From NCBI RefSeq assembly GCF_003287975.1, contig NZ_QMKQ01000016.1:1-64000 (forward strand): a stretch of DNA of 64,000 bases, given 5' to 3'. This DNA is from Arthrobacter sp. AQ5-05. GTDB lineage: Bacteria; Actinomycetota; Actinomycetes; Actinomycetales; Micrococcaceae. Shown piece after piece: positions 18,881 to 64,000 of this stretch (position 1 is its first letter; every line of letters starts with the position of its first letter). Both the position numbers and the translations under genes were made by a program. A model generated the notes under the pieces. It was not told the DNA's origin. It ran no database searches and saw only the letters and a program-made list of their open reading frames with translations.

Positions 18881-19050
18881 GCTCACCATCCTTTCGAATG
18901 TTGGGGGTTTGGGCATCGCCGACTCGCTCCCAAAGATCTTCTCACAGAATTTTTTGCGAAAGTGATGGCTATTACATCTAACATCTGGTTCTATAGGTAA
19001 CAGACAGAAAGTAATCCACACCACAACCCCACCGAGAAAGGACGGACACC
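18881..19050. promoter_or_regulatory. divergent promoter region for GntR-cache and polyamine importer
   Basis: A 170-base gap with an AT-rich core (about 18945-19015), low in GC compared with its flanks. An imperfect inverted repeat with arms TCTG and CAGA spans about 18984-19004 and is the best operator candidate seen, but it is weak. Confidence 0.4.
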
Positions 19051-20115
<1,065 letters not shown>

Positions 20116-20197
20116 CCCCCTTTCCCAACCCAACGGCCGGGACCTTTTCCCTCTTGCAACCCGGCCGCAGCATCATTCGCCCAGAAAGGCCACGATC

Positions 20198-21397: not shown

Positions 21398-21547
21398 CAC
21401 CGCCGCACCCCGCACCGACCAGGTCCCACTAGCTGCCGGTGCGGGAAGGCGACCCCCAAGCGCCATCCCGCATCGGCTTTCCCCCCTATCCCCGCATTCT
21501 TCACTCCCAGCAACGAGGAGGATCGACGAGATTCGTCGGCAACCGCC

Positions 21548-22477: not shown

Positions 22478-22487
22478 GGAGACCGGC

Positions 22488-23291
22488 ATGAGACTCTCTG
22501 CCCCCGCCAAGATCACCCTGCGTGTATTTGCCGGCATTGTCATGGCGGCCATCTACCTGCCGCTGGCACTGGTCGTCACCAACTCGTTCAACGCCACCAC
22601 CTCCGGGGCCTTCCCCATCAAGGACTTCACCACCAAGTGGTGGGTTGCCGCCTGGCACAACGAAGGCGTCCGCGAGGCGCTGTGGACCTCCATCAAGGTC
22701 GCTTCGGTGGCCACCGCCATTTCCCTGGTGCTCGGCTCGATGGTTGCCTTCGCCCTGGCCCGCTACGATTTCTTCGGCAAGAACACCGTCAACCTGCTGG
22801 TCGTCCTGCCGATCGCCCTGCCGGGCATCGTCACCGGTGTCGCCCTGAACAACACCTTCAAGACCGTGCTGGAACCGCTGGGCATCGGGCTCGGGCTGTT
22901 CTCGGTGATCGTCGGACACGCCACGTTCTCGATCGTGATGGTGTTCAACAACGTCCAGGCACGCATGGGACGGATGAACCGCGGCCTCGAGGAAGCGGCC
23001 ATGGACATGGGGGCGAACATGTTCAAGACCTTCTTCCAGGTCACCTTCCCCGGATTCCGCTCGGCCTTCATCGCCGGCGGCCTGCTGGCCTTCGCGCTGA
23101 GCTTCGACGAGATCGTGGTCACCACGTTCACCGCGGCCCCCGGCACCGAAACCCTGCCGATCTGGATCTTCAACAACATGTCCCGTCCCAACCAGGCGCC
23201 GGTGGTCAACGTGATTGCCGCGGTGCTGGTGCTGGCCTCGATGATCCCGGTGTACCTGAGCCAGCGCCTGACGGGAGACGACAAGAAATAG
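22488..23291 (+). CDS. potC: spermidine/putrescine-type ABC transporter permease (PotC family)
   Basis: Membrane protein of 267 residues with six transmembrane segments. AAIYLPLALVVTNSFN at the N-terminus and the EAA loop EEAAMDMGANMFKTFFQVTFP are characteristic of PotC. SFDEIVVTTFTAAPGTETLPIWIF is the family's late motif. A good GGAG lies before the ATG. It is the last gene of the operon; a hairpin follows 26 bases past the stop. Confidence 0.93.
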   Translation: MRLSAPAKITLRVFAGIVMAAIYLPLALVVTNSFNATTSGAFPIKDFTTKWWVAAWHNEGVREALWTSIKVASVATAISLVLGSMVAFALARYDFFGKNTVNLLVVLPIALPGIVTGVALNNTFKTVLEPLGIGLGLFSVIVGHATFSIVMVFNNVQARMGRMNRGLEEAAMDMGANMFKTFFQVTFPGFRSAFIAGGLLAFALSFDEIVVTTFTAAPGTETLPIWIFNNMSRPNQAPVVNVIAAVLVLASMIPVYLSQRLTGDDKK

Positions 23292-23317
23292 TCGATTCCG
23301 CCCAACCCCGTCACCCG

Positions 23318-23357
23318 GCAATTCCCCGTGGAACACCAATGGTCCACGGGGAATTGC
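23318..23357 (+). terminator. terminator-like hairpin after the polyamine importer operon
   Basis: A perfect 15-base stem (GCAATTCCCCGTGGA / TCCACGGGGAATTGC, 23318-23332 with 23343-23357) and a ten-base loop, placed 26 bases after the last permease. There is no long T-run. Confidence 0.75.
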
Positions 23358-23703
23358 GGTTCCCGGCGCCGCCCTCCGAACCCCGCGGGGCCAACCCGTG
23401 CACTCGGAAAAGATCTGGGAATACCGTCTCAAGGCCACCCCGGAAAAACTCCGGGCGGCACCGACCGATCCGAAGCAACGCGCGGTGTGCTATTTCGGGA
23501 ACGGGTTCGTCACCCATTGGGCGCCGGGTTCGGGTTTCACGGCCGAGAACACCAATGCAGACGGGCGGCGGAGCGAGGGAGCCAGCGACCAGCCCCACGG
23601 AGGCTGGTTGAAGATCCTTTTGGGCATGCAGACCTGGTGGCAGGCCGGCGGGTGCCTCGCCGCCCCGGTCCGGCCAAGGTACCCGCGCACGCAAGCGGGC
23701 CAC
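23358..23703. other. intergenic region, no convincing gene
   Basis: About 350 bases between the importer operon and the convergent molybdoenzyme gene. Open frames exist on both strands (one from 23398 on the plus strand), but none has family resemblance and the plus-strand frame runs on antisense into the molybdoenzyme gene. Confidence 0.45.
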
Positions 23704-46509: not shown

Positions 46510-47318
46510 TGACCACCCTGCACCTTCCAATCCCCCGGCTGGCCCAAGCCGCAGTGCCCGGCGAACCCATCCTTGAGGTGGAAAACCTCACCAAGTCCTT
46601 TGGCGGACGCACCGTGCTGGACGGGGTCGATTTCACCCTGTCCCGCGGCTCCGTTGTCGCCTTCCTGGGCGCCAACGGCTCGGGCAAGTCGACCACGCTC
46701 AAGTGCATCATGGGCCTGGAGACCCCCGAGGACGGCTCCATCAAGTTGGCCGGAACCGAGCTGTCCGCGCTGCGCGGAACCGAACTGGCCAAGGCCAGGT
46801 CCGCGGTGGCCATGGTCTTCCAGAAGATCCACCTGGTCCCGCGCCGCACCGCACTGGACAACGTATGCGCCGGCGCCCTGGGCAGGCTCGGCGGCCCGGC
46901 CTCCATCAGCCCGATGTTCTTCCCCCGCGAGCTGAAGGAGGAGGCCATGGCTGCCCTGGCCCGCGTCGGCATGGCCGACCGTGCCCATGAGAAGGCCGGC
47001 CGGCTTTCGGGCGGACAGGCCCAGCGTGTGGCGGTCGCCCGCGCCCTGTGCCAGCGCGCTTCCGTGGTGCTGGCCGACGAGCCGGTCTCCGCCCTTGACC
47101 CGCGCGCCGCCGAGGAAGTCATGGCACTGCTGGCCGAACTGGCCCACGAGGAAAACCTGGCCGTGGCCGCGGTGCTGCATCAGCCGGATTTGGCCCTGCG
47201 CCACGCCGACACCGTTATCGGCCTGATAGACGGCCGCATCGAATACTCCGGGGACATCTCCGGCCTGGATGCGTCCATGCAGGCCCGCCTCTACACCCCG
47301 CACCGGGCAGCGGCATGA
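46509..47318 (+). CDS. phnC: phosphonate ABC transporter ATPase
   Basis: ATPase of 269 residues. Walker A GANGSGKS, Q-loop VFQKIHLVPRRTALDNV, signature LSGGQAQR, Walker B VVLADEPVSALDPRAAEEV and the switch His in VLHQPDLALRHAD are all present. The VFQKIHLVPRRTALDNV segment with the long spacer is typical of PhnC. Both ends overlap the neighbours (TAATG and ATGA), so phnD, phnC and phnE are coupled. Confidence 0.94.
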   Translation: MTTLHLPIPRLAQAAVPGEPILEVENLTKSFGGRTVLDGVDFTLSRGSVVAFLGANGSGKSTTLKCIMGLETPEDGSIKLAGTELSALRGTELAKARSAVAMVFQKIHLVPRRTALDNVCAGALGRLGGPASISPMFFPRELKEEAMAALARVGMADRAHEKAGRLSGGQAQRVAVARALCQRASVVLADEPVSALDPRAAEEVMALLAELAHEENLAVAAVLHQPDLALRHADTVIGLIDGRIEYSGDISGLDASMQARLYTPHRAAA

Positions 47319-48133
47319 GCGCACCGGTCGCACGGCTCTCGGTTCCCAAGCTCCCCAACGCCGGGTGGCGGATCACCTCGATCCTCACCGCCATCGCGGT
47401 GTTCGTCGTGCTGCACGTCTTCGCGCTGCGCGGCACCGACTTCGAGGTGGCGGCACTGGTCACCGGCGCCGAGGGCATGGCCTCCTTCCTGGCCGACGCC
47501 TTCCCGCCGGACCTGGACTGGGAAGGGGTGCTGGCCCCGGCCTTGAAGGCCACCACGGTGACGCTGTGGATCGGCCTGTTGGGCACCACGCTCTCGATTC
47601 CCAGTGCCCTGCTGCTGGCGGTGTTCGCTTCACGCACCACCACCCCGCACCGGGCCGTGTACCAGCTCTCCCGCGCGATCCTGTCCTTCTTCCGCGCGGT
47701 CCCCGACATCGTGTTCGCGCTGATCTTCGTCACCGCGGTGGGCCTTGGCCCCTTCGCCGGGGTGCTCGCGTTGATCTGCCACAACACCGGGGTCATGGGC
47801 AAGCTCTGGGCCGAGTCCATGGAGGAGACCGACAACGGTCCGCAACAGGCACTGTCCACCGCCGGTGCCTCGCGCCTGCAGCAGGTCACCCACGCGGCCC
47901 TGCCCATGGTGCTGGGCCAATTCGTCGGGTTGCTGCTCTACCGCTTCGACGTGAACGTGCGCTCCTCGCTGGTGCTGGGACTCGTCGGTGCCGGCGGCAT
48001 CGGGCTGCTGATCAACCAGTCCATCAAGTCCTTCCGCTTCGATGCGATGGCCACGCAGATCATCGTGGTGCTGGTGCTGATCATCCTGGTCGACCAGCTC
48101 TCCTCGTTCATCAGGCGCAAGCTCGAGGTCTAG
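47315..48133 (+). CDS. phnE: phosphonate ABC transporter permease
   Basis: Membrane subunit of 272 residues with six hydrophobic segments. The PhnE signs are ATTVTLWIGLLGTTLSIPSALLLAVFAS, LSFFRAVPDIVFALIFV and the EAA-type loop STAGASRLQQVTHAALP followed by FDVNVRSSLVLGLVGAGGIGLLI. It ends the operon; the next recognisable gene is 1 kb away. Confidence 0.94.
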   Translation: MSAPVARLSVPKLPNAGWRITSILTAIAVFVVLHVFALRGTDFEVAALVTGAEGMASFLADAFPPDLDWEGVLAPALKATTVTLWIGLLGTTLSIPSALLLAVFASRTTTPHRAVYQLSRAILSFFRAVPDIVFALIFVTAVGLGPFAGVLALICHNTGVMGKLWAESMEETDNGPQQALSTAGASRLQQVTHAALPMVLGQFVGLLLYRFDVNVRSSLVLGLVGAGGIGLLINQSIKSFRFDAMATQIIVVLVLIILVDQLSSFIRRKLEV

Positions 48134-49136
48134 CAGGACTTTCCGGGCCTCGGGCTGCGTGGAGGAGCGGAGGAGCGCAAGCTTGTCCAAGGCCAGCGGG
48201 CCATATGAAGCAGGCTCCGCCGTCCACAGGGGCATGGCAGGCGCCAAGCGAACCTTGCTCCCGAACGGTATACGCGCCATGCACTGGTTGCCGCGCGTGG
48301 CTGGCCCGTTATGCCATGGCGGGCGGGGCTGCAGCACCCACCGGGGCTTCCGACGAAGAACGGATTTGGGTGCCCCGGTGCTGCCGAGGCTTGTTCTGGT
48401 GCCGGGAATTGCCGTGAACGGGCCCGCCGCTGAAATCTCGGTGCCGACACCACCCTGCACGTGGCAAGAAGCTTCGTCGTGACCCCTCCGGTGCTTAGCC
48501 TCCATTGTCCTCCGATGCAGATTGGTGGCGCTTGCCGAAGCTGGGCAGCCCTGCCGAGAAGGCACACCAGTGAGCCCACGCCTAGGCCTGCACACGATGA
48601 TTCCGCAGCGCCAAAAACCCTTGGAACCATCGAACGACATACCTTCCACGCGTATGCCACTGCGTGAATCAGGACGCGCGGGCACCACCCCAGGGTGCGG
48701 ACCGGATCCTCCAACCTTTGGCACCGGTAACAGGATCAACCACTTCAGCTTGCACCTGGGCTCCATCGATTGCGGCGGCACACCGTCGGTTGAGCCAGCA
48801 CATTGTCATCGTTGGGCCACAGGATCCCCACCATCCGGTCCTTTGGCATGCAGAATCCTGGAAAGCCCGGCCTGGGTTTCCTCTATCCCGACAACAGGAA
48901 CAACGCGTATACGCTTGCGAACGAGCTCGGCAGCAACATCGCCCTGGGTTTCTGGAAGGCAGCGCGGTTCGCGCTGCCTTCGTCTTGGGAATCGTGTCCG
49001 GCTCCATGCTGGCGGCCGATTCCGATCGGTGCCATGATCGAGGTATCGCCGAAAATGAAAATCTGGATAAGGGTAAGACGACCCTCCTGCGATTACCACC
49101 TGGGGTCGGGAAACCTCGTCATCGGAGGACAACAAC
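48134..49136. other. 1-kb region without recognisable genes
   Basis: No frame on either strand resembles a protein family, although several open frames of 60-190 codons exist. On the minus strand a readable piece (AAELVRKRIRVVPVVG followed in another frame by GILWPNDDN) around 48810-48960 looks like decayed coding sequence. The region separates the phosphonate operon from the stress/fermentation block and may mark the edge of a transferred segment. The right end holds the ackA promoter and a GGG-N8-CCC box. Confidence 0.45.
49070..49085. promoter_or_regulatory. DosR-box-like palindrome upstream of ackA
   Basis: AGGGTAAGACGACCCT has GGG and CCC arms separated by eight bases, the spacing of the mycobacterial DosR box, 51 bases before the ackA start. 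The inner bases match the DosR consensus only in part. Confidence 0.4.
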
Positions 49137-50285
49137 GTGCTCATATTGGTGCTGAATTCCGGCTCATCGTCAATCAAGTTCCAGCTGCACCGGTTACAAG
49201 AACCGAGCACCGCGAACCGGTCCACGGTGCTGGTCGCCGGCCAGGTCGAGAGGCTTGCCGGGGTCGAAGCTCCGAGCGAGTATGGGCAGACCCTCAGCCA
49301 AGTCAACCAGCAGGTGATTCCGGTCTTGTCTGGGCAGAAAATCGATGTGATCGGACATCGGGTGGTCCATGGAGGCGAACTCTTCACGGAACCCACCGTG
49401 CTTACCGACGAGGTCATCGGTGCACTGGAACAGCTGACTCATTTGGCGCCGCTGCACATACCCCAGGACGTTGCCGGAATCCGTGCTGCTGCCACCATCT
49501 GGCCCGGAATCCCTCAGGTTGCCGTCTTCGACACTGCGTTCCACCGGACCCTGCCCGAATCTGCCTGGCGCTTTGCCATCCCGGACGACCTCTACCTCGA
49601 CCACGGGATCCGACGCTATGGCTTTCACGGTATCTCCCTTGCCTTTGTAACCGACCAAGCGTCCAGCTTCCTCGGGATCCCTTCCGAAGCACTCGACGGC
49701 ATCGTCGCCCATTTGGGCAATGGCGCCTCCGTAACCGCCATTCGCGGAGGACGGAGCATCGATACGTCCATGGGCTTCACTCCCGTGGACGGCCTGGTCA
49801 TGGGAACCCGGTGCGGGGACCTCGATCCCTCGGTGATCTTGTTCCTGCAACGCCGGGGACTCGACGCCGATGCGATCGAGGAACTTCTCAACCGGAAGTC
49901 CGGCCTGCGGGCCCTTTGCGGCACCAGTGACATGCGATCGGTCGAGGAAGCGGCCCAAGCCGGCCAGGCCAGGGCCGTCCTCGCCATGGAGATCGCCGCC
50001 TACCGACTCGCGAAATACATTGGCGGCTACCATGTGGCTGTCGGCGGAGCCAAGGTGCTGGTCTTTACCGGTGGCATCGGGGAAAATTCGGCCGCTTTTC
50101 GTTCGTTGGTTCTTGGCAAGCTGGCCCCGCTGGGAATCGTGCCGGACGGCTCCGCCAACGAGGGAGGTGCCACGGGGACGCGGTTGATTAGCTCCGCATG
50201 TTCTTCGTTCCCGGTTCTCGTTGTTCCCACCGATGAAGCATCCGTCATTGCAGCAGCCGCTGCCTCGCTGTTGCCGATTCCCTAG
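49137..50285 (+). CDS. ackA: acetate kinase
   Basis: Enzyme of 382 residues that interconverts acetyl phosphate plus ADP with acetate plus ATP. Motifs are in order: LVLNSGSSSIKFQL at the N-terminus, IGHRVVHGGE, VFDTAFHRTLPESAWRFAIPDDL, RRYGFHGISLAFVT, VAHLGNGASVTAIRGGRSIDTSMGFTPVDGLVMGTRCGDLDP (by segments) and LVFTGGIGENSAAFR. The GTG at 49137 has CGGAGG upstream. Phosphoketolase encoded nearby makes the acetyl phosphate. Its stop overlaps that of the convergent mgtA by four bases. Confidence 0.96.
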   Translation: MLILVLNSGSSSIKFQLHRLQEPSTANRSTVLVAGQVERLAGVEAPSEYGQTLSQVNQQVIPVLSGQKIDVIGHRVVHGGELFTEPTVLTDEVIGALEQLTHLAPLHIPQDVAGIRAAATIWPGIPQVAVFDTAFHRTLPESAWRFAIPDDLYLDHGIRRYGFHGISLAFVTDQASSFLGIPSEALDGIVAHLGNGASVTAIRGGRSIDTSMGFTPVDGLVMGTRCGDLDPSVILFLQRRGLDADAIEELLNRKSGLRALCGTSDMRSVEEAAQAGQARAVLAMEIAAYRLAKYIGGYHVAVGGAKVLVFTGGIGENSAAFRSLVLGKLAPLGIVPDGSANEGGATGTRLISSACSSFPVLVVPTDEASVIAAAAASLLPIP

Positions 50286-52996
50286 GTCGCCCGGTGGTCC
50301 GCGCTGGACCGGACAACTTGCTTGCTGGCCACACGCGCACCTCCCGGCCCCAGGGGCCCGGCAACGCTGAACCGAGAAGCGCGCCGATGCACATGGTGGG
50401 GCCCTCCGCGTTTGCGGCTTGTCGGTGCCCTGCGCTCCGATCTTGAAAAGAACCAGCTCTTGGCAATTTCGACCAAGACGAGGTACACCACCGTCAGCCC
50501 AAGCAGCGACAGGAAGAACGGGGCAGGCAACGGATCAAAACCCAGCAGGCCAGCCACCGGTGACAAGGGGATAAAAATGCCCAGCGCGACCACTCCCAAG
50601 GCGGACCCAAGCAGTCCCATCGAGGGTCGGCTGCGAAGGAACGGCACACGGCGGGTCCTGATCGCAAAAATGATCAGAGTTTGCGTCGCGATGGATTCAA
50701 TGAACCAACCGGCCCGAAACTCGCCTTGAGCCGCATGGAATGCGAAGATCATCAGGCTGAAGGTCGCAAAATCAAAGAGCGAACTGATCGGTCCGAACAG
50801 GAGCATGAAGCGCCGAATAAGGGAGATGTCCCAATGCGAGGGTGCGAACATCTGTTCCTTGTCCACGTTGTCCCCGGGGATGGCAAGCTGTCCGGTGTCA
50901 TAGAGCAGGTTGTTGAGCAGGATTTGCCCCGGCAGCATGGGCAGGAAACTCAAGACAACGGAGGCTGTAGCCGCACTGAACATGTTCCCGAAATTGCTTG
51001 AGGTTCCCATCAACACATATTTCATGGTGTTGGCAAAGATCCTCCGTCCGTCTCGGACTCCTTCGGCCAGGACGCCCAGGTCCTTGTCCATCAGGACAAT
51101 GTCGGCCGCGTCCTTCGCAACGTCCGTAGCGCTGTCAACAGAGATTCCTACGTCTGCCTTGTGAAGTCCGAGGGCGTCGTTGACGCCGTCCCCCAGGAAT
51201 CCGACGGCGCTTCCGTCTTGCCGCAGAAGCCTGATAAGTCTTGCCTTCTGTTCGGGGGAAACCCTGGCAAAGATGTTTGCGTCCCGGGCAGCAACGATCA
51301 AATGCTCATCCGTCATCGCGTCCATCTGGATTCCGGTCAGGGTTCCGCCCAATACCAGGCCCAGCTCCCGACACACCTTCTCGGCCACCCTGGCGTTGTC
51401 CCCCGTGGCGATCTTCACCGTGATGCCCAACGCTGCCAGCTCCACGAGCGACTCCTTGGCATTCGGCTTCGGGTTGTCCTGGAAGGTAAGGAATCCGGCC
51501 AGGCGCAATCCCCGTTCGTCGGCGATTCCAAGTCCGGGCAGGTTGACGGTGGCACGGGTAGCCACAGCGACCACTCTCGCGCCCTGATCGTATAGTTCAT
51601 CAAGTCGGGAATGCGCATCGGGAGGGACGTCGACACACAAGCGCATGAGATCTTCCGGGGCACCCTTGCTGATGATGCGTTGGTTCCCGGCCGGGTCCGA
51701 CACCAGAACACTGGACATCCTGCGTTGGTGGTCAAAGGGAACAATGTCCACCCGCTTCCAGCTGCCCGGCACAAATTCACGGGCTGCCGGAGCATTCCAT
51801 AACGCGGTGTCCAAGGGATTGTGTCCTTCCGTGGAGACCACTGCACCGGAAAAGTCCATTTCCGTGGAGACCAGTCCCAGGACGAACAGTTCCGCAACGG
51901 AGAGGTCCGGAAGCACCGGCAGTGCCTTCGAGAAGCCGATGCGACCCTCGGTCAGGGTCCCGGTCTTGTCGGTGACCAGCACGTCCATGTCTCCCAGGTC
52001 TTCGATGCAGACCAGACGTTTGACCAGGACATTCCGTCTGGCCAACATCCTGGTCCCGGTGGCTAGGCAGGTGCTTACCACTGCGGGCAACAGCTGGGGC
52101 GTTATGCCCACCGCAATCGCCAGGGAGAACAGCAATGACTCGATGAACGGACGGCCAAGTAGCAGGTTCGCGATGAAGATGAGCGTAGTCAGGACGACCG
52201 CCACCTGCAGAAGAAGGTACGAGAAACGCTTGAGGCCTTGCTGGAATTCGGTTTGCGGCTGTCCTTCCCCCAAACCCAAGGCGATTTGGCCAAACTCGGC
52301 GCGGCCGCCCGTGGCCACAACCACGCCGGTGCAACTGCCGAATTGGATGACGGTTCCCATGAAGGCGCACGAACTCATGTCCCCAACGGAAACCTCACCG
52401 CCAACGGGGGCAGGATCCTTTCGAACCGGCAGTGATTCCCCCGTGAGGATGCTTTCGTCGCACGACATCTCGTCACAAACCAAGAGCCTGATATCGGCAG
52501 GCACGATAGCGCCCAAGAATAGCCGGACGACATCGCCGGGAACCAACCTCACAACGTCGAGTTGGCGCTCCTTGCCATCCCGCAGGGCCACAACGGTGTG
52601 GGTCACGCGTTTGTGAAGTGCCTCCGCTGCGCGTTCAGCCCGGAATTCGCTGCTGAAACCCAATCCGATACTGACCGCCAAGATCACGGCAATAACCACC
52701 GAGTTGGTGATGTCCCCCAGAAAGACGGATAAACCGGCAGTGGCCAATAGGAGCATGAGGATCGGACTACGCAGTTGCCTCCACAGCACAGCCCAAGGCT
52801 GTGCCTTATGGGTTCGCAATGCGTTGGGGCCCACCACGGCTAGCCGTCGTGCCGCTTCCGGCTCGCCCAGCCCCACCTTGGTCGTGTCCAGGTCAAGCAG
52901 GACACGTTCCGTTGGCCGGCGGGCGGCGTCTTGGATCGAAAGTGCCGGGCTCGCCGCCATTCCCAGTCCGGCTACTTGGACCCCCGCCGGCTTCAT
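50282..52996 (-). CDS. mgtA: magnesium-transporting P-type ATPase (MgtA type)
   Basis: P-type ATPase of about 904 residues in the P3B group. TGES in DESILTGESLPVRKDP, the phosphorylated Asp in VLVTDKTGTLTEG, KGAPEDLMR, and the hinge GFLGDGVNDALGLHKADVGISVDSATDVAKDAADIVL are present. About ten membrane segments include SLAIAVGITPQLLPAVVST, the P3B version of the ion site. The ATG at 52996 overlaps the stop of the universal stress protein gene, so the two are coupled. It ends in a basic tail (SERRAPTSRKRGG). Confidence 0.93.
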   Translation of the reverse strand: MKPAGVQVAGLGMAASPALSIQDAARRPTERVLLDLDTTKVGLGEPEAARRLAVVGPNALRTHKAQPWAVLWRQLRSPILMLLLATAGLSVFLGDITNSVVIAVILAVSIGLGFSSEFRAERAAEALHKRVTHTVVALRDGKERQLDVVRLVPGDVVRLFLGAIVPADIRLLVCDEMSCDESILTGESLPVRKDPAPVGGEVSVGDMSSCAFMGTVIQFGSCTGVVVATGGRAEFGQIALGLGEGQPQTEFQQGLKRFSYLLLQVAVVLTTLIFIANLLLGRPFIESLLFSLAIAVGITPQLLPAVVSTCLATGTRMLARRNVLVKRLVCIEDLGDMDVLVTDKTGTLTEGRIGFSKALPVLPDLSVAELFVLGLVSTEMDFSGAVVSTEGHNPLDTALWNAPAAREFVPGSWKRVDIVPFDHQRRMSSVLVSDPAGNQRIISKGAPEDLMRLCVDVPPDAHSRLDELYDQGARVVAVATRATVNLPGLGIADERGLRLAGFLTFQDNPKPNAKESLVELAALGITVKIATGDNARVAEKVCRELGLVLGGTLTGIQMDAMTDEHLIVAARDANIFARVSPEQKARLIRLLRQDGSAVGFLGDGVNDALGLHKADVGISVDSATDVAKDAADIVLMDKDLGVLAEGVRDGRRIFANTMKYVLMGTSSNFGNMFSAATASVVLSFLPMLPGQILLNNLLYDTGQLAIPGDNVDKEQMFAPSHWDISLIRRFMLLFGPISSLFDFATFSLMIFAFHAAQGEFRAGWFIESIATQTLIIFAIRTRRVPFLRSRPSMGLLGSALGVVALGIFIPLSPVAGLLGFDPLPAPFFLSLLGLTVVYLVLVEIAKSWFFSRSERRAPTSRKRGGPHHVHRRASRFSVAGPLGPGGARVASKQVVRSSADHRAT

Positions 52997-53463
52997 GTTC
53001 CGATCGATTCTTCCGTTGGTGGTTGCGACGGTGAATGGACCACGAGCACCGGACACTTTGCATGCTCCGCACACGCCGAGCTGACGGATCCGAGCAACAA
53101 GCCGGCGAATCCTCCATGACCGCGCGAACCGACGACCAGCATGCAGGCTGAAGCGCTTCGCTCAATCAGGATGCGCGCGGGCATGCCCTGGCAGCACTGC
53201 GCAAACAGGCCCTCAGGCATATTGTTTCCGAAGGCCTCGGCCAGGGAATCGTCCATCACCTGTTGCGCGTCTGTCTCCGGATTCCAGGTCGGGGATGCAT
53301 AGGCACCCCAGGCGTTTTCAAAATGCCACACGTTGACGGCAACGACTACCGCCCCGAGGGAAGGAGCCAGCTTGGCTGCCCATTTGAGGGCTTCCACGGA
53401 ACCGGCAGATCCATCTACTCCCACCAGGATGTGTGCACGATCAATGCTGGCCATGTCTTCCAT
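52993..53463 (-). CDS. universal stress protein (ATP-binding type)
   Basis: UspA-domain protein of about 156 residues. ILVGVDGSAGSVEALKWAAKLA opens the fold, and the ATP-binding loop G-2x-G-9x-G(S/T) is complete in VVGSRGHGGFAGLLLGSVSSACAEHAKCPVLVV. Starts at 53463 (MEDMASID) or 53454 (MASIDRAH) are both possible. It is cotranscribed with mgtA and divergent from the phosphoketolase gene. Similar Usp genes are the most numerous members of the mycobacterial DosR regulon. Confidence 0.92.
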   Translation of the reverse strand: MEDMASIDRAHILVGVDGSAGSVEALKWAAKLAPSLGAVVVAVNVWHFENAWGAYASPTWNPETDAQQVMDDSLAEAFGNNMPEGLFAQCCQGMPARILIERSASACMLVVGSRGHGGFAGLLLGSVSSACAEHAKCPVLVVHSPSQPPTEESIGT

Positions 53464-53582
53464 CGTTCTACCGTTCGTCGTCAACGCGGCACGGGGCAAA
53501 CGACATGTCATGAGCCAGGGGCCACCGCCGAGACCATCCGTCCCCGGATATCAATCATTGGCCCTGTGCGACGCTGCCGAAC

Positions 53583-53598
53583 AGGGTACAACGTCCCT
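53583..53598. promoter_or_regulatory. DosR-box-like palindrome between usp-mgtA and phosphoketolase
   Basis: AGGGTACAACGTCCCT has GGG-N8-CCC spacing; its reverse strand begins GGGAC as in the DosR consensus. It lies in the divergent promoter gap, 120 bases before the Usp start and 111 bases before the preferred phosphoketolase start. Confidence 0.45.
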
Positions 53599-53708
53599 AA
53601 CCGTCCTGCCGGATCCGTGCAACAGTGGAAGCACCGCAGCATCCGCCACTCGATTCGAAGCACCGGTCGGGTGAATCCGGATCAGGCAACGGCCACTTGG
53701 AGCAGTCC

Positions 53709-56201
53709 TTGAAGAATCGGTTCAATCCCGTCGATCCCCCGGCAGTGCAGGCTCCGGTCCCGGCCATGGATGCAGGAGAGCTCGACCTCCTGAACCGGTA
53801 CTGGAATGCGGCAAATTACCTGACCGTTGCCCAGATCTACCTCCAGGACAATGCGTTGCTGCGCGTTCCATTGGCCGCTGGACACATCAAGCCGCGGCTG
53901 CTGGGGCATTGGGGAACGAGTCCCGGATTGTCCATGATCTATGTGAATCTCAATCGGCTCATCCGCATGACCGGCGCCCAGGTCCTGTTCATGACCGGTC
54001 CCGGACACGGCGGACCCGCAGTGGTAGCCAACCTGTATCTGGAAGGAACCTATTCCGAGATCTACCCCGAGGTCGGCCGGGATCTTCCGGGGCTGCAACG
54101 GCTGGTCCGTCAGTTTTCCACTCCGGGCGGCATCCCCAGCCATGTAGGGCCGGCCACACCCGGTTCCATCCACGAAGGCGGGGAGTTGGGCTACTCGCTG
54201 GCACATGCAACCGGTGCCGCAATGGACAACCCCGACCTCATAGTCGCCTGCGTGGTCGGCGACGGGGAAGCCGAAACGGGCCCATTGGAAGGAGCATGGA
54301 AGGCTCCTTCGTTCCTGAACCCTGACCGGGATGGGGCCGTCCTGCCGGTTCTGCACCTCAACGGTCACAAGATTTCCGGTCCCACGATCCTGGGCCGGCG
54401 TTCCGACAGCCAAGTCATGGCGCTGTTGCGCGCTCACGGCTGGGAACCGGTCATGGTCACCGGTGACGACCCTGCCCTTGTACATACGAGCCTTGCCCGG
54501 GCCCTCGCCGACTCCCACACCCGGATCATCCAGATCCAGGAGCGGGCCCGCAGTCGTGGAAACACAGGGCCTGCCCCGTGGCCTGCCATCGTCATGCGCA
54601 CCCCAAAGGGCTGGTCGGGCCCGGCTTTCGTGGATGGAGTCCCGATCGAGGGCACGTTCCGTGCCCACCAGGTTCCGTTGGGCTCGGTCCGGGAGAATCC
54701 CGCCCACTTGGCTCAGCTGGAATCCTGGTTGCGCTCCTACAAACCGGAAACGCTCTTTGATGAGGACGGACGGCTGGTTCCGGAACTTGCGGCACTCGCC
54801 CCCCAGGGGCACTTGCGCATGGGCGCCAATCACTGGGCCAACGGCGGTTCGTCGGCCCCGCTGCCGCTGCGGCCGCTGGAAGACTATGCCCTCAAGGTGG
54901 GTGCTCCGGGTTCCACCAAACACGAAACCACCAGGCCGTTGGGTGAGATGTTTCGCGACATCTATGCCGATACGGCCCAGGATCCCCGGTTCAGGCTGTT
55001 CAGCCCGGATGAGACCAACAGCAATCGACTTGGTGCCGTCTTCGAGGTCACCGACAGGTGCCTGATGACTCCGTCGTTGGACGGCGATGACCATTTGTCC
55101 CGGAACGGCCGCGTCATGGAGGTCCTTTCGGAGCACCTCTGTCAGGGCTGGCTCGAAGGCTACGTCCTCACCGGACGATATGGATTCTTTGCCACCTATG
55201 AAGCGTTTGCCATGGTGAGCGCCTCCATGACCGTCCAACACGCCAAATGGCTCCAGCACGCCCGTGAACTACCCTGGCGGCACCCCGTGCCCAGCCTGAA
55301 CATCCTGCTCACATCGACGTGTTGGCGCAACGACCACAATGGCTTCAGCCACCAGGGACCGGGCCTGATCGACACCGTGCTGTCCCTGTCCGGCTCGGTG
55401 GTCCGGGTCTATCTTCCCCCGGACTCCAACACCTTGTTGGCCACGGCCGAACACGTCCTACACAGCAATGGCCACCTGAACCTGGTCGTCGTGGACAAGC
55501 AACCCCACCCCCAATACCTGAATCTGGAGGAGGCCCGCCGACACGCCGCAGCCGGTGCCTCGATCTGGCGGTGGGCGGGCAACGAGGATTCACCCGGAAA
55601 CACGATCAGCGGCCGGAGCACAAGGACCGGCACCGAATCATCCGTCACGGCTGCCGACGGGCAGTTGCCGCAGGCCGAGCCGGACATCGTCCTGGCCTGC
55701 GCCGGCGATGTCCCTACCGAGGAGACGCTCGCCGCGGCATGGTTGTTGCAGCGCTATGTACCCGGGCTGCGGGTCCGGGTGGTCAATGTGATGGATGTGT
55801 TCGTGCTTCCGCCCCATGCCGTCCATCCCCATGGGCTCACCGACGCCGGTTTCGAAGGCCTGTTCACCGCTGAGCGCGATGTTGTCGTGGCATGGCATGG
55901 GTACGCCCGAGCCATACACCAACTGCTGCACGGACGCTCGAATCCGGGCCGTTTCCACGTCCGCGGCTACAACGAACAAGGAACTACGACGACGCCGTTC
56001 GACATGGTGGTCCTCAACCGCATGAGCCGCTACCACCTTGCCCTCGAGGCGTTGAACCGGGTCGACGGCCAGTTCGACGGCGCCCTCGAACTGGTGGAGC
56101 ACTGCCGGGCCATGCTCGTGAAACACGAAGCCTACATTCGCCGGCATTTGGAGGACATGCCCGAAATCCGCGACTGGGTCTGGTCCCCGCCTCGGGGCTG
56201 A
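53709..56201 (+). CDS. xfp: phosphoketolase (xylulose-5-phosphate/fructose-6-phosphate)
   Basis: Thiamine diphosphate enzyme of about 830 residues that cleaves xylulose 5-phosphate (or fructose 6-phosphate) with phosphate to acetyl phosphate and a shorter sugar phosphate. Motifs: NRYWNAANYLTVAQIYLQDN, GHWGTSPGLSMIYVNLNRL, MTGPGHGGPA, STPGGIPSHVGPATPGSIHEGGELGYSLAHA, the ThDP motif VVGDGEAETGPLEGAW and later GYNEQGTTTTPFDMVVLN. The TTG at 53709 has GGAG six bases upstream; a GTG at 53625 is an in-frame alternative without a good site. With ackA it forms a short ATP-yielding route. Confidence 0.95.
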   Translation: MKNRFNPVDPPAVQAPVPAMDAGELDLLNRYWNAANYLTVAQIYLQDNALLRVPLAAGHIKPRLLGHWGTSPGLSMIYVNLNRLIRMTGAQVLFMTGPGHGGPAVVANLYLEGTYSEIYPEVGRDLPGLQRLVRQFSTPGGIPSHVGPATPGSIHEGGELGYSLAHATGAAMDNPDLIVACVVGDGEAETGPLEGAWKAPSFLNPDRDGAVLPVLHLNGHKISGPTILGRRSDSQVMALLRAHGWEPVMVTGDDPALVHTSLARALADSHTRIIQIQERARSRGNTGPAPWPAIVMRTPKGWSGPAFVDGVPIEGTFRAHQVPLGSVRENPAHLAQLESWLRSYKPETLFDEDGRLVPELAALAPQGHLRMGANHWANGGSSAPLPLRPLEDYALKVGAPGSTKHETTRPLGEMFRDIYADTAQDPRFRLFSPDETNSNRLGAVFEVTDRCLMTPSLDGDDHLSRNGRVMEVLSEHLCQGWLEGYVLTGRYGFFATYEAFAMVSASMTVQHAKWLQHARELPWRHPVPSLNILLTSTCWRNDHNGFSHQGPGLIDTVLSLSGSVVRVYLPPDSNTLLATAEHVLHSNGHLNLVVVDKQPHPQYLNLEEARRHAAAGASIWRWAGNEDSPGNTISGRSTRTGTESSVTAADGQLPQAEPDIVLACAGDVPTEETLAAAWLLQRYVPGLRVRVVNVMDVFVLPPHAVHPHGLTDAGFEGLFTAERDVVVAWHGYARAIHQLLHGRSNPGRFHVRGYNEQGTTTTPFDMVVLNRMSRYHLALEALNRVDGQFDGALELVEHCRAMLVKHEAYIRRHLEDMPEIRDWVWSPPRG

Positions 56202-56310
56202 AACCCCTCGCAGGTAAAGGACCATCACTGTCCTGGTCCTGCGGCGTTCAAGACAGATTCCCGCTAGCGCCGAAGGGTTCGCCCCCGGGCGGGAAGCATC
56301 TGCGGCTGGT

Positions 56311-57180
56311 TCATAGTCCCGGCACGATTCCTGCTTCGATCCGTGCCAGCACCTCACGATAGTCCAGCTGGGCCAGATCCACCGCGTCGATCTCCTCCCA
56401 ACGCCGCGGTGCAGCCACGGTCGGGAGCGCCGAGCCTCGCAAGGAGTATGGAACAACCGTCGTCTTTCCCGGCCAGTTTTGGCTCCAGTCGACCAGCACC
56501 TTTCCCCGACGCAATTCCTTGTCCATGCGGCTGACCACCATCTCCGGATATTCACTTTCCAAGGACATGGCCAGTTCATGTGCCAGGCGTGCGACCTCGT
56601 CCGACGTCCTCTTTCCGTCAAGCTCGGCATACACGTGCAAGCCCTTGCGTCCGCTGGTGACAGGGAGGGAGACGACGCCCATTTGGGCAAGCGATTCCTT
56701 GACAAGGAGGGCCACGGCGGCGCACTCGGGCAAGCCTGCACCTTCTCCCGGGTCCAGATCCAGCACCATGCGGTCGGGGTGCTGCGGAGTGCCATCCGGG
56801 GAAAATCGCCATTGCGGCGCGTGGATCTCGAGGGTCGCAGTCTGGGCAAGCCATACCAATGTCCGGGCATCGTTGACCATCGGATAGATATTCACATGAT
56901 CCTTGTGCTGCATTCTTTGGCGCAGTACCCACTCGGGCGTGGAGGCATCAAGATTCTTCTGGAAGAAGCTCTTGCCGGGATCTGTGCCGGTTCCCACTCC
57001 GTCAACCCATCGTTTACGGGTTGCGGGCCGGTCCCTGGCCCATGGGATCATTACCGGGGCTACTTGCATGTAGTACATGGCCACATCCAGCTTGGTGGTA
57101 CCGGTTTCCGGATAGAGAACCTTCCCGGGGTGCGTGAAACGGACAGCTCCACCGTCCACATGCAATTCCTGCGCGCTCAT
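56311..57180 (-). CDS. LigD-type polymerase domain protein (NHEJ primase-polymerase)
   Basis: Archaeo-eukaryotic primase-like PolDom protein of 289 residues, corresponding to the polymerase module of LigD without ligase or nuclease parts. FTHPGKVLYPETGTTKLDVAMYY, FFQKNLDASTPEWV and the metal site MVLDLDPGEGAGL are visible, with VTSGRKGLHVYAEL and the late SLRGSALPTVAAPRRWEE. Such proteins add ribo- or deoxynucleotides during end joining. No Ku or ligase gene is nearby. The ATG at 57180 removes an unconserved leader. Confidence 0.92.
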   Translation of the reverse strand: MSAQELHVDGGAVRFTHPGKVLYPETGTTKLDVAMYYMQVAPVMIPWARDRPATRKRWVDGVGTGTDPGKSFFQKNLDASTPEWVLRQRMQHKDHVNIYPMVNDARTLVWLAQTATLEIHAPQWRFSPDGTPQHPDRMVLDLDPGEGAGLPECAAVALLVKESLAQMGVVSLPVTSGRKGLHVYAELDGKRTSDEVARLAHELAMSLESEYPEMVVSRMDKELRRGKVLVDWSQNWPGKTTVVPYSLRGSALPTVAAPRRWEEIDAVDLAQLDYREVLARIEAGIVPGL

Positions 57181-57517
57181 GGTGAGCCCCGGGTTCCACA
57201 ACGGTTCGGGTTACCGACAGCTTGGCTTTGAGGCCGTCCGCATCCGGGTCCCTGGCCAACCACGGTCTCGAGCCCGGCACCGTCGTTCATTCGAGGATCA
57301 CCTTTCCTCTGCGATCATTGACTCTCGATTCTGATGCCGGGATCGACAGATGTCCAGAGCTATCACGAGCCGAATAGCTTGTCCGGCCCCGCCGCCGCCC
57401 TATGCCCTGGGCCACCATCAGGGCTACGCTGTCGATCATGTTACTGGTCTGTTCTGGGGTTCCCGTCCTCGGTTGCTTCCTCCGTCCGGCCGAAGCATCC
57501 AAGCCCAGGAGTGAACC
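57181..57517. other. divergent intergenic region, no gene seen
   Basis: 337 bases between the polymerase gene (minus) and the ABC1 kinase gene (plus), holding both promoters. No convincing frame and no clear GGG-N8-CCC box was found. Confidence 0.45.
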
Positions 57518-59164
57518 GTGACCTCGCACTTTGAACGCTATGCTGAAGTTGCGGAAATCCTCGTCAGGCATGGTTTCGAATCGTTGGTGAACGTTCTAGG
57601 ACTGGAACGGCTGCAGTTGCGTTCGATACCACGCTCGTCCGGACCGTTGAGTAATCCGGATCGCCTGGTTCTGGCCTTGGAAGAGCTGGGGCCCGCCTTC
57701 ATCAAACTTGGGCAAGTGCTTTCCACGCGGCCGGACCTACTTCCGCCAAACTACCTTGCGGCGCTTTCCAGGCTCCAAGACGGTACACTTCCCGTTCCGT
57801 CAAACATCATTCGTTCCTTGATCACACAGGAATTGGGCGCATCTCCCGAGGAAGTGTTTGCCGACTTCAGTGATGCTCCCTTGGCCAGCGCGTCCATCGG
57901 CCAAGCCCATGCCGCGACCCTGCACAACGGCACCGCTGTGGTCGTCAAGGTTCGGCGGCCCGGCGTTGTCTCACAGGTGCAGGAAGACCTGGAGATCCTG
58001 CAAAACCTGGCCCACCAGGCAAGCCGCAATTGGAGCGCCGTGGCGGACTACAACGTGGAGTCGATAGCGGCTGCCTTTGCGGCAACGCTTCGGGCCGAGT
58101 TGGACTACCTCAAGGAAGGCCAGAACGCAGAGAGGTTTGCCAACAACTTTGCCGGAGACGCAAGTATCCACATTCCAAAGGTCTTCTGGGAAACCACGAC
58201 GTCCCGGGTCCTGACGATCGAAAGGATCCACGGACTGAAGATCGATGATGCAAAGATCCGCGCCATGCCCGTGGCCGCACGGGACCAATTGGCCGAGCAG
58301 GCCACACGAGCAATCGCGCAAATGATCTTCGATGATGGGTTCTTCCACGCAGACCCACACCCCGGAAATCTGTTCGTTGAATCCACCGGGTGTATTGGGT
58401 TGATCGATTTTGGAATGGTTGGCGAGCTGAGCGAGCGTCTCCGAGACCAACTCGGCAAGCTACTCCTTGCGTTCAGCAGGAATGACGCCGACCGGATTTC
58501 CCGCTGCCTGATTCAGCTCTCGATCAACACGAACACCACAAACCGGGAACGACTCGTGCAGGACATCGGACACTTCATGCGGCAATATCAGGGCAAGCTT
58601 CTTGGCGAAGTCCAGCTCTCGTCCCTCGTCACCGAGCTCCTCGCCATCCTGCGCACCCACCGGCTTCAATTGCCCAGCGAAATGGCGATGCTGGCAAAGA
58701 TGATCCTGATGACCGAAGGCATGGGCGTTCGGCTCAATCCCGAGTTCAATCTCGGTGAGGTGCTCAAGCCCTATGCGGGCAGGCTGGCCCTCGAACGGCT
58801 CAATCCGCGCAGACTACCTGGCATGCTCAAGCAGTGGGGATTGGATGCTGCGGACCTCGGCGCCGACCTGCCCGAACTCCTGGAGCGCGTGCTTCGAAAC
58901 CTCGACGACGGCCCCGAGGTGCGACTCCGTTCCGACGACCTCCTGCCGTTGCTTGCCCGGGCGGAACGCATCGGAAATCGGCTCGTGGCAGGCATGATTC
59001 TCGCAGCGTTCATCCGCGGAATCGGGGATCTAACAACTGCTGACCGTGATCGATTGAATTCGTGGCAAAACTGGTTGCTTGCCGGCGGTCTCGGCGCCAT
59101 GGGGGCCATGGGCGGTTACCTGGCGTGGACTTCCAGACCGAAGGCACGACGCCCCGGGCCGTAG
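57518..59164 (+). CDS. ABC1/UbiB family atypical kinase
   Basis: A 548-residue protein with GTG start behind AGGAG. The family's KxGQ motif is FIKLGQVLSTRPDLLP, the Ala-rich nucleotide loop PLASASIGQAHAATL, the invariant Lys AVVVKVRRPG, then GFFHADPHPGNLFV and CIGLIDFGMVG. C-terminal hydrophobic helices (LLAGGLGAMGAMGGYLAW) anchor it to the membrane. UbiB/COQ8 proteins support isoprenoid quinone synthesis. In a menaquinone-using actinobacterium the target is uncertain. Confidence 0.93.
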   Translation: MTSHFERYAEVAEILVRHGFESLVNVLGLERLQLRSIPRSSGPLSNPDRLVLALEELGPAFIKLGQVLSTRPDLLPPNYLAALSRLQDGTLPVPSNIIRSLITQELGASPEEVFADFSDAPLASASIGQAHAATLHNGTAVVVKVRRPGVVSQVQEDLEILQNLAHQASRNWSAVADYNVESIAAAFAATLRAELDYLKEGQNAERFANNFAGDASIHIPKVFWETTTSRVLTIERIHGLKIDDAKIRAMPVAARDQLAEQATRAIAQMIFDDGFFHADPHPGNLFVESTGCIGLIDFGMVGELSERLRDQLGKLLLAFSRNDADRISRCLIQLSINTNTTNRERLVQDIGHFMRQYQGKLLGEVQLSSLVTELLAILRTHRLQLPSEMAMLAKMILMTEGMGVRLNPEFNLGEVLKPYAGRLALERLNPRRLPGMLKQWGLDAADLGADLPELLERVLRNLDDGPEVRLRSDDLLPLLARAERIGNRLVAGMILAAFIRGIGDLTTADRDRLNSWQNWLLAGGLGAMGAMGGYLAWTSRPKARRPGP

Positions 59165-59210
59165 TGATGCGCTGCGCCTCTCAATCAAGATTGGGATGGC
59201 CTTCTGCCCG

Positions 59211-61463
<2,253 letters not shown>

Positions 61464-61489
61464 CTATCCCTAGCTCCCAAGGATCCATC

Positions 61490-62560
61490 ATGAAGGCATT
61501 GATCTACCATGGTCCGGGCGACAAGTCCTGGTCGGATGCTCCAGACCCGCAAATCCTCCATGCCGGCGACGCAATCGTCAGGGTGGATACCACAACGATC
61601 TGCGGAACCGACCTCCACATTCTCAAGGGTGACGTTCCGGCTGTCCTGCCCGGACGGATCTTGGGTCACGAAGGCGTTGGAACCGTGATGGAGACGGGGC
61701 CGGGCGTTCACGACCTGACCGCGGGCGACCGGGTCCTGATCTCCTGCATCAAGTCGTGCGGACACTGCCCCAATTGCCGTATCGGGCTGTACTCCCATTG
61801 CCTCGGCCAGGAGGGACAATCCGGCATCGGCTGGGTTTTTGGCCACCTCATCGATGGCACCCAAGCCGAATTCGTCCGGGTGCCCTACGCAGACAACTCG
61901 CTGTACAAGCTGCCCGAAAGCGTCAGCAATGTCGAGGGAGTCATGCTCTCGGACATCTTGCCCACGGGCTTCGAAATCGGGATCCTCGCCGGCGGGGTCA
62001 AGCCCGGGGATGTGGTCGCAGTCGTCGGCGCCGGACCGGTGGGGCTTGCCGCCATCGCCACCGCCGGGCTCTGCGGAGCCGGGACCGTCGTGGCCATCGA
62101 CCGGGATGCCAGCAGACTCGAGCAGGCCCGGGAATTCGGGGCGACGGATACCGTTGACTCCACCGCTGTGGATTGGCGCAAGCAGGTCATGGCCCTCACC
62201 GATGGCGCAGGGGTGGATGTGTCCGTCGAGGCCGTTGGGCTGCCGGAAACCTTCACCATGGCGGTGGGGCTTGTCCGTCCGGGCGGCCGAATTGCCAATG
62301 TCGGGGTCCACGGCACCAGCGTTGAACTGGCCTTGCAGGAGCTGTGGATCCAGAACATCAGCATCACCATGGGACTGGTCAACACCAATACCACCCCGAT
62401 GCTGCTGAAGCTCGTGGCGCAGCACAAGATCCCGGCCGCAAAGTTCGCCACCCACACGTTCACGTTCGATCAGATCATTGGCGCCTACGACACCTTCTCC
62501 CGGGCTGCCGAGACCAAGGCGCTGAAAGTCATCATCAATCGCGTCAACTCACAATCCTGA
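61490..62560 (+). CDS. zinc-dependent alcohol dehydrogenase
   Basis: Medium-chain dehydrogenase of 356 residues. Catalytic zinc ligands lie in TTICGTDLHIL (Cys about 38) and ILGHEGVGTV (His about 59). The structural zinc knuckle is CGHCPNCRIGLYSHC. The Rossmann motif is VAVVGAGPVGLAAIATA. It is close to the group of Zn-alcohol dehydrogenases acting on short-chain or secondary alcohols. It starts a plus-strand run with the NADP-binding protein and a Usp gene. It could reoxidise NADH when respiration is limited. Confidence 0.92.
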   Translation: MKALIYHGPGDKSWSDAPDPQILHAGDAIVRVDTTTICGTDLHILKGDVPAVLPGRILGHEGVGTVMETGPGVHDLTAGDRVLISCIKSCGHCPNCRIGLYSHCLGQEGQSGIGWVFGHLIDGTQAEFVRVPYADNSLYKLPESVSNVEGVMLSDILPTGFEIGILAGGVKPGDVVAVVGAGPVGLAAIATAGLCGAGTVVAIDRDASRLEQAREFGATDTVDSTAVDWRKQVMALTDGAGVDVSVEAVGLPETFTMAVGLVRPGGRIANVGVHGTSVELALQELWIQNISITMGLVNTNTTPMLLKLVAQHKIPAAKFATHTFTFDQIIGAYDTFSRAAETKALKVIINRVNSQS

Positions 62561-62571
62561 AAGGCAGAATC

Positions 62572-63213
62572 ATGGAACAGGTCACCATCATCGGCAACGG
62601 GCACATGGCCCGGTCCATCGCCGTCCGAATGCTCCAGGCCAGGCGCTCCGTGCAAATCCTTGGCCGCAACGGCGAAAAGACCAGGGATCTGGTGGAGTTC
62701 CTCGGCGCCGGCGCCCGGGGCGGCGCCGAGGGCGCGCCCATCGACGGAGGTATCGTGTTCCTCGCAGTGCCCTACAACGAAGGAAAGGACGCCATGCTCG
62801 TCTATGGCGACGCCCTGGCCGGAAAAGTCGTCGTGGACATCAGCAATCCCGTGGACCTGGCAACCTTTGACAAGCTGCTGGTCCCGAGCGGAACGTCCGC
62901 GGCCGAAGAGATCGCCGTGCATGCCAGCCCGGAAGCCCATGTTGTCAAGGCGTTCAACACCTGCCTGGCCAAGCCCCTGGAGGCGGGGTCCGTGGCCGGG
63001 TTGCCGCTGGATGTCTTCATCGCGGGCGACTCCGAGCAGGCCAAGGTCGAGGTCAGCGCCGTCGTGGCGGCCTCGGGGCTGCGCCCGATTGACGTCGGGC
63101 CGTTGCGCCGGGCCCGCGAGCTGGAGGCCATGATGTTGCTGGTCATGGGCCTGCAGGTCAGCCCCGACCAGGACAACTTCAATTGGGATACGTCCCTGAA
63201 GCTCCTTCCTTAG
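62572..63213 (+). CDS. NADPH-dependent F420 reductase-like / NADP-binding protein
   Basis: A 213-residue Rossmann protein. The dinucleotide motif is VTIIGNGHMARSIAVRMLQARRSV, then ILGRNGEK, IVFLAVPYNEGK, VVVDISNPVD and HVVKAFNTCLA, the pattern of the FNO (F420:NADP oxidoreductase-like) family. The C-terminal half, PLRRARELEAMMLLVMGLQ, matches the same family. Whether it uses F420 or a quinone or metal complex cannot be told. It starts 11 bases after the alcohol dehydrogenase. Confidence 0.9.
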   Translation: MEQVTIIGNGHMARSIAVRMLQARRSVQILGRNGEKTRDLVEFLGAGARGGAEGAPIDGGIVFLAVPYNEGKDAMLVYGDALAGKVVVDISNPVDLATFDKLLVPSGTSAAEEIAVHASPEAHVVKAFNTCLAKPLEAGSVAGLPLDVFIAGDSEQAKVEVSAVVAASGLRPIDVGPLRRARELEAMMLLVMGLQVSPDQDNFNWDTSLKLLP

Positions 63214-63219
63214 GAAGAC

Positions 63220-63696
63220 ATGAAAGCACCGTCGGAAAGGCCGGACCGCATCGTCGCAGGAATCGACGGCTCCGGATGCTCCAGGTTGGTCTTGCAGACC
63301 GCAGCAGCGGTTGCGGCGGCCTTGAAACTGAACCTGCAGGTCATTAGTTGCTGGAGCCGCCAGGATTTCCTCTTTGCCTCGCAGTTTCCCGGTGGCCGGT
63401 TCCCAGACCCGGATCTGGTCGAAAGGGAAGCATCGCATCTGGTGAATGACACCATCAAGCGCGCGTTTGGCCCGAACCGACCACCCGGACTGACCGTCAG
63501 AATCAGGTACGGGCATCCGGCAGCGGTCCTGATCGAGGAGAGCGCCAATGCGCGAATGCTCGTAGTGGGCCGGCGCGGCCGCGGAGGATTCAACGGCTTG
63601 CCGATCGGATCCGTGGCTTCCGCATGCACCGCCTATGCCCATTGTCCGGTGGTCGTCGTCAATGACCCGGATCAGGACGGATTCAACCGGTCATAA
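63220..63696 (+). CDS. universal stress protein (second)
   Basis: UspA-domain protein of 158 residues: RIVAGIDGSGCSRLVLQTAAAVAAALKL at the start, ATP loop VVGRRGRGGFNGLPIGSVASACTAYAHCPVVVV at the end. It follows the reductase-like gene by six bases and precedes a P-type ATPase gene. The order P-ATPase plus Usp repeats that of mgtA and its Usp partner. Confidence 0.92.
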   Translation: MKAPSERPDRIVAGIDGSGCSRLVLQTAAAVAAALKLNLQVISCWSRQDFLFASQFPGGRFPDPDLVEREASHLVNDTIKRAFGPNRPPGLTVRIRYGHPAAVLIEESANARMLVVGRRGRGGFNGLPIGSVASACTAYAHCPVVVVNDPDQDGFNRS

Positions 63697-63718
63697 CCGG
63701 CAAACACGGAACGGTCCG

Positions 63719-64000
63719 ATGCGGTCCATTCGCCAACACCTCATGATCACGGCCACCCTTCTGGTGGGGTGCCTCGTGCTCCTGCTGCTGCTGTTCGGCC
63801 ACGGAGGCAACGCGCAATTGCTGGCCGGCGTCTTTGCCGCGGCCGCCGCCGTACAACGGGGTGCGGAAATGATCCGCGAGATGTCCCACGGCCGCTGGGG
63901 CGTGGACTTTCTTGCCGTCACGGCTATCGCCAGCACCATCGCCGTGGGTGAATACCTCGCGGCCTTGATCGTCGTGTTGATGCTTTACAGCGGGTCGGAG
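63719..64000 (+). CDS. heavy-metal-type P-type ATPase, N-terminal part (cut by window end)
   Basis: The first 94 codons of a P1B-type ATPase that continues beyond the window. It begins with a hydrophobic hairpin (ITATLLVGCLVLLLLLFG, then LLAGVFAAAAAVQRG), and GVDFLAVTAIASTIAVGEYLAALIVVLML is the typical M3/M4 approach of heavy-metal ATPases lacking an N-terminal metal-binding domain. The ion cannot be told without the CPC-type motif. It lies 22 bases past the Usp stop. Confidence 0.85.
   Translation, partial: MRSIRQHLMITATLLVGCLVLLLLLFGHGGNAQLLAGVFAAAAAVQRGAEMIREMSHGRWGVDFLAVTAIASTIAVGEYLAALIVVLMLYSGSE

Follow-up and report, generated by a model that had tools for sequence, protein, structure and literature searches.

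A putative DosR/OsdR-type dormancy island carrying a lone heme-GAF sensor kinase in Paeniglutamicibacter

The stretch of DNA analysed here (the window, 64,000 nucleotides) spans positions 1-64000 of the 106,382-b contig C16. The genome (4.65 Mb, 116 contigs) is placed by inference in Paeniglutamicibacter, the genus to which all genus counts below refer (15 genomes). With gene starts set by hand, the right-hand end of the window carries genes for acetate kinase (49137..50285, + strand; PF00871, E 3.2e-119; TIGR00016 above cut-off) and, on the - strand, for an MgtA-type (IIIB) P-type ATPase (50282..52996; TIGR01524 above cut-off) and the universal stress protein usp1 (52993..53511; PF00582, E 2.4e-26). 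The phosphoketolase gene xfp (53625..56201, + strand; XFP_N, XFP and XFP_C; NF003619 above cut-off) is followed by genes for a stand-alone LigD primase-polymerase domain protein (56311..57180, - strand; PF21686, E 5.8e-80; TIGR02778 above cut-off), an ABC1/UbiB-type kinase-like protein (57518..59164, + strand; PF03109, E 3.6e-73) and a DevS/DosT-type heme-GAF histidine kinase without a devR neighbour (59211..60893, - strand; GAF, HisKA_3 and HATPase). Divergent from the kinase gene, and all on the + strand, lie a zinc alcohol dehydrogenase gene, adh1 (61490..62560; PF08240 and PF00107), genes for a reductase of the FNO-like F420/NADP oxidoreductase family (62572..63213; PF03807, E 2.1e-11; TIGR01915 below cut-off) and the universal stress protein usp2 (63220..63696; PF00582, E 1.1e-20), and a heavy-metal-type P-type ATPase gene with a broken frame (63717..64000, running on to C16:65611). 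Pfam and NCBIfam placed every gene named in the original prediction, that of a DosR-like hypoxia and dormancy island, where it had been called. In the two proposed pairs of a Usp with a P-type ATPase, both Usps and the first ATPase hold, and the second ATPase is the broken gene, which is broken in the copy of a second species (G094) as well. The LigD polymerase gene stands beside devS in 4 of 26 named loci, including that of G094. A role in DNA end repair had also been proposed; however, a search of this genome for PF02735 gave no match and hence no Ku gene, which 4 of the 8 genus genomes searched do have, so that classical, Ku-dependent LigD end joining is unlikely.

The row of genes continues past the window with further genes of the DosR-regulon kind. 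Usp3 (C16:65805-66320) and a calcium-type P-ATPase (C16:66691-69447) are encoded on the - strand, and an Hsp20 named by eye (C16:69673-70140), a PNPOx-like protein (C16:70357-70830) and an HAD-GH65 protein (C16:70885-73809), which presumably resembles Rv2006 (otsB1), on the + strand. A PPDK/PEP-synthase-type enzyme (C16:73813-76227, - strand) is followed by a second ADH, a VIT1/CCC1-like frame named by eye within the region C16:78659-79465, an OmpR-type regulator with a HisKA kinase (C16:79911-81799), Usp4 (C16:85522-85953, + strand), Pta (C16:86117-88285, - strand) and, at the end of the island, a flavodoxin-like protein. Between the two-component pair and Usp4, at C16:83150-85217, a row of four genes encodes ApbE, a membrane protein with four helices (by eye), a NuoF-like protein and a ferredoxin-like small protein (by eye), and this row is a possible electron-disposal module of the island. 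This genome has 16 Usps, of which the island carries four, and eight genus genomes searched have 9-21 each. In 2-kb steps the GC content is 0.59-0.64 at 48-64 kb versus 0.61-0.70 at 1-48 kb; because these ranges overlap, the drop is modest.

These genes lie within an insertion. The junctions of empty sites in other species, together with the positions of an 18-bp direct repeat, delimit about 45.05 kb (about C16:48134-93186), of which the dormancy cluster fills the left third, the window stopping at 64000. The left copy of the repeat (48117..48134, + strand) overlaps the 3' end of a permease gene (47315-48133), stop codon included; the right copy lies outside the window at C16:93187-93204, and there are exactly two copies on C16. 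In G141 the equivalent of C16:48134 joins directly to that of C16:93187, with one exact copy of the repeat at the junction; in G126 the equivalent of C16:48131 joins directly to that of C16:93187, and the junction sequence has diverged from the repeat. In five congeners (G022, G050 and G111 as well as G126 and G141), the corresponding flank stretches, 12.5-28 kb in length, gave no match to island proteins at E 1e-10, and in G074 the right flank of the insertion gave no match. No integrase was found among the Pfam-scanned island proteins, the small leftover frames being inspected by eye only. From the repeat and the empty sites we infer that the island was gained here.

Two relatives bear on its history. 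Compared with C16 in 1-kb steps, G094, which has only the left copy of the repeat, is 98.6-100% identical at 35-74 kb, 95.5-97.3% at 74-79 kb and 80.8-96.2% in the other aligned steps, and the near-identical 35-74 kb tract indicates a recent exchange of part of the island, together with adjoining core DNA, between the two species. Paeniglutamicibacter quisquiliarum (locus L135) has a reduced, diverged island adjoining the same right-hand flank, in which ackA, abc1 and a kinase truncated within GAF-A stand beside the island's flavodoxin end. A plasmid origin was considered and set aside; the 37 plasmid records with relatives of the kinase all fall below 60% identity, so no recent plasmid source was found. 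Separately, window positions 19001-23700 are unmatched in the compared G094 stretch and adjoin a local GC-skew dip, and form a second accessory segment.

The island kinase combines, by sequence, a heme GAF-A domain with HisKA_3 and HATPase domains. Its GAF-A matches the DosT structure 2vzw (E 4.7e-56) and the DevS structure 2y8h (E 5.2e-51), and its ATPase part matches the DevS/DosT ATPase domains 3zxo and 3zxq. The kinase had been described as having two GAF domains; Pfam calls only one, and the second appears as a weak match of residues 213-343 to the PDB GAF protein 2vjw (E 2.9e-4). The sequence is intact and keeps the motifs HHPPM and LYLT, and a 13-residue stretch and LYLTEK align with those of DosT and DevS. 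In the heme GAF of DosS/DosT the proximal histidine is His149/His147 and the distal tyrosine Tyr171/Tyr169 (PMC4082495); by our own assignment, the aligned stretches would hold both residues. With its heme-ligand motif kept, the island kinase is likely to be an oxygen sensor. In a tree of 37 of the 45 kinase rows (L070, L071, L072, L074, L076, L085, L100 and L140 are absent, two of which are the kinases of the second type in G050 and G094), the three island kinases (this genome, G094 and P. quisquiliarum) group together (98/95) and form one clade with six Arthrobacter-type kinases (100/100). Full-length DevS-type kinases occur in 4 of the 15 genus genomes, namely this one, G094 (two), G050 and G151, and P. 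quisquiliarum (G152) has a truncated one; the heme motif is changed in the second G094 kinase and in that of G050. The kinases of this second kind (L111 in G050; L100 at G094:C1:370000-389999) have the motif HPQM or HPPT and have Hsp20 and Usp genes as neighbours, joined in G050 by adh, fno and ATPase genes; their loci may represent a further, independent dormancy cluster of the genus.

The genome does encode a NarL-family DevR, on another contig. It had been noted that no DevR-type regulator was in view, and this extends to the whole of C16, where none of the genome's 30 GerE-domain hits lies, so that kinase and regulator are not encoded together on the island; a clear DevR is found at C4:199579-200277 (- strand; E 6.5e-60 against 3c3w). 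A kinase apart from devR is still compatible with a DosR system, because DosT is likewise a second, separate kinase. DevS and DevR relatives occur in one identical set of 49 out of 149 family genomes, drawn from 14 of 32 genera, at thresholds of 1e-60 (DevS) and 1e-50 (DevR), with several kinases possible per genome and heme-less ones taken into the DevS count. On C4, devR is convergent with a distant DevS-like kinase, an adjacency seen in the 8 genus genomes of the family sample. Kinases of this C4 type are present in all 15 genus genomes, and their alignment with the island kinase starts only at about residue 112-128; in all 15, the heme-ligand and LYLT motifs are absent. The C4 kinase matches PDB in its kinase part only, and a long branch (2.28) leads to its clade. 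Judged from these alignments, heme sensing seems to be gone from the kinase next to devR.

If DevR acts on the island, its binding sites would be expected in the island promoters, and such sites are predicted with a matrix built from related loci. Searched with the mycobacterial consensus box, the island yielded no good site, nor did a matrix built from seven published OsdR sites single it out. With the latter matrix, 11 of 87 upstream regions (taken from twelve locus sets, with divergent promoters counted twice) scored at least 9, versus 1.25 in mononucleotide shuffles. The matrix was retrained on 24 sites from related Micrococcaceae loci, excluding C16 and C4 of this genome, with seeds picked by eye. 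Its best match on the 106-kb contig C16 lies between usp1 and xfp (53581..53600; score 19.2), and the second best in the divergent gap of adh1 and devS (61382..61401; score 18.8), about 90-110 bp upstream of adh1; a weak box (49068; score 9.1) lies near the acetate kinase gene. The island has 16 matches scoring at least 8, of which 12 are intergenic, with intergenic DNA making up 7,035 of 45,053 b (binomial p 2e-7). When this intergenic DNA was shuffled by dinucleotides, a mean of 1.04 boxes resulted, and none of 200 shuffles reached 12. At thresholds of 10, 12, 14, 16 and 18 there are 7, 4, 3, 2 and 2 intergenic boxes, with shuffle expectations of 0.375, 0.12, 0.03, 0.005 and 0, respectively. 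Outside the island, C16 has 7 matches of at least 8 in 61,329 b, two of them near 14; given this background, only the two sites near 19 convince singly, and the weaker island sites are singly unproven. A box scoring 14.0 lies about 85 bp upstream of devR itself, with one further box above 10 (12.8) in the 20-kb C4 stretch. Among 57 other loci of this genome (16 Usp, 41 GerE and HisKA_3), three had matches of at least 11: one is the usp1 box, and the other two are the devR box, met in two loci that overlap. Across the 15 genus loci, the top-scoring match is always a box of the DosR/OsdR kind (score 8.4-15.1).

The original reading of a DosR-type island is thus borne out by the DevS/DosT-type heme GAF of the kinase, the DevR orthologue, the predicted boxes and the gene content past the window, and conservation of the cluster is seen in Arthrobacter, where the same genes surround devS and devR. 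We consider it probable, from these sequence comparisons, that the insertion is a horizontally acquired DosR/OsdR-type dormancy island in Paeniglutamicibacter, whose heme kinase would feed the core DevR in trans. That a general stress and metabolism island should resemble a DosR regulon by chance could draw on Usps being common in this genome and across the genus genomes searched, but the specific GAF-A match to DevS/DosT, the DevR orthologue, the enrichment of boxes and the synteny with devSR islands make such a coincidence highly improbable. As judged from gene order, the grouping is more than chance: the devS/devR surroundings are shared with Arthrobacter, versus the island-free flanks of the five congeners.

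Two further alternatives concern the fate of the island and the direction of change. The content may derive from a DosR regulon while the kinase is uncoupled from DevR, leaving a decaying or repurposed remnant whose control could fall, for instance, to the OmpR-type regulator and HisKA kinase that the island itself encodes; the lack of devR in its slot, the ATPase broken in two species, the truncated kinase and reduced island of P. quisquiliarum and the presence of this unrelated two-component pair all speak for such a remnant. Because the two strongest boxes of C16 stand in island promoters, the kinase sequence is intact and the tract at 35-74 kb is nearly identical in two species, we regard this as improbable. 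Somewhat less so, yet still unlikely, is that other species lost an old island, leaving the empty sites, and that no gain took place here: P. quisquiliarum keeps its reduced, diverged copy beside the same right-hand flank and an integrase was not noticed on the island, but the 18-bp repeat occurs at both ends here and just once where G141 has its empty site, and five congeners have no island genes in the matching stretch.

Under the reading of an acquired island that feeds the core DevR, falling oxygen, or binding of NO or CO, would lead the heme kinase, kept off by oxygen if it behaves like DosS/DosT, to phosphorylate DevR in trans. Phosphorylated DevR would then bind the boxes and switch on usp1, xfp, adh1-fno-usp2 and the other boxed units. 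Stress proteins, cation ATPases, the PPDK-type enzyme and electron-disposal enzymes would thereby be made, permitting survival without growth. Phosphoketolase, Pta and AckA could yield acetyl phosphate and ATP without respiration, while electron disposal would fall to ADH, the FNO-like reductase and the NuoF/ferredoxin set. DevR may in addition be fed by acetyl phosphate, which is described as a phosphodonor in vitro for the DevR homologue OsdR (PMC5069765). Since the kinase next to devR seems to be without heme sensing, the island would restore oxygen input. More tentatively, and with slightly less than even confidence, we suggest that the core DevR system of Paeniglutamicibacter lost heme gas sensing and regained oxygen input only through an island heme kinase acting in trans, as part of a modular, horizontally exchanged dormancy program. 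The locus suggests that a DosR-type dormancy program can travel between harmless soil bacteria as one 45-kb block, and that sensor and regulator can separate, with the sensor and targets on an island that has no regulator and the core regulator seemingly left without a gas-sensing neighbour. Such an island, which places acetyl-phosphate metabolism (phosphoketolase, Pta and AckA) beside the sensor, gives a safe model in which to ask how the choice of sensor sets the dormancy trigger. Among open-licence titles and abstract openings we found no literature on an island of this sort, or on DosR/DevR in Paeniglutamicibacter or Arthrobacter.

With the DosR regulon of Mycobacterium tuberculosis, for which a published table gives Usps, ctpF, hspX, otsB1, fdxA, dosS, dosR and dosT (PMC4090907), the system shares a DevS/DosT-type kinase, DevR, several Usps, a cation ATPase, Hsp20, a ferredoxin and a sugar-hydrolase/phosphatase-type gene, and an island kinase apart from devR recalls DosT. 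Unlike in M. tuberculosis, the genes form a 45-kb insertion with direct repeats, devR lies away from the island, and the kinase beside it has no heme motif; the island includes phosphoketolase, Pta and AckA, the LigD polymerase and ABC1, whereas a nitrate reductase and an hrp1-like gene were not noticed on it. The OsdR/OsdK island of Streptomyces coelicolor (SCO0198-SCO0219) shares Usp, ADH, PPDK and PNPOx genes, in line with the predicted OsdR targets given in PMC5069765 (Usps, ADH, pyruvate phosphate dikinase and a PNPOx protein), and the kind of box, GGG-N-C...G-N-CCC (PMC5069765), although the published OsdR sites alone failed to find the island boxes. There osdR and osdK form one operon, whereas here the kinase stands alone and the regulator is on another contig. 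Also closely related are the devSR islands of Arthrobacter (A. wenxiniae, A. silviterrae and others), whose kinases fall in the same fully supported clade as the island kinase and which, unlike this island, keep devR convergent with devS. A. wenxiniae (G096) shares the LigD polymerase, ABC1, ADH, FNO-like, Usp, ATPase and phosphoketolase genes, and where it has devR and a PNPOx-like gene between abc1 and devS, the island described here has 46 bp.
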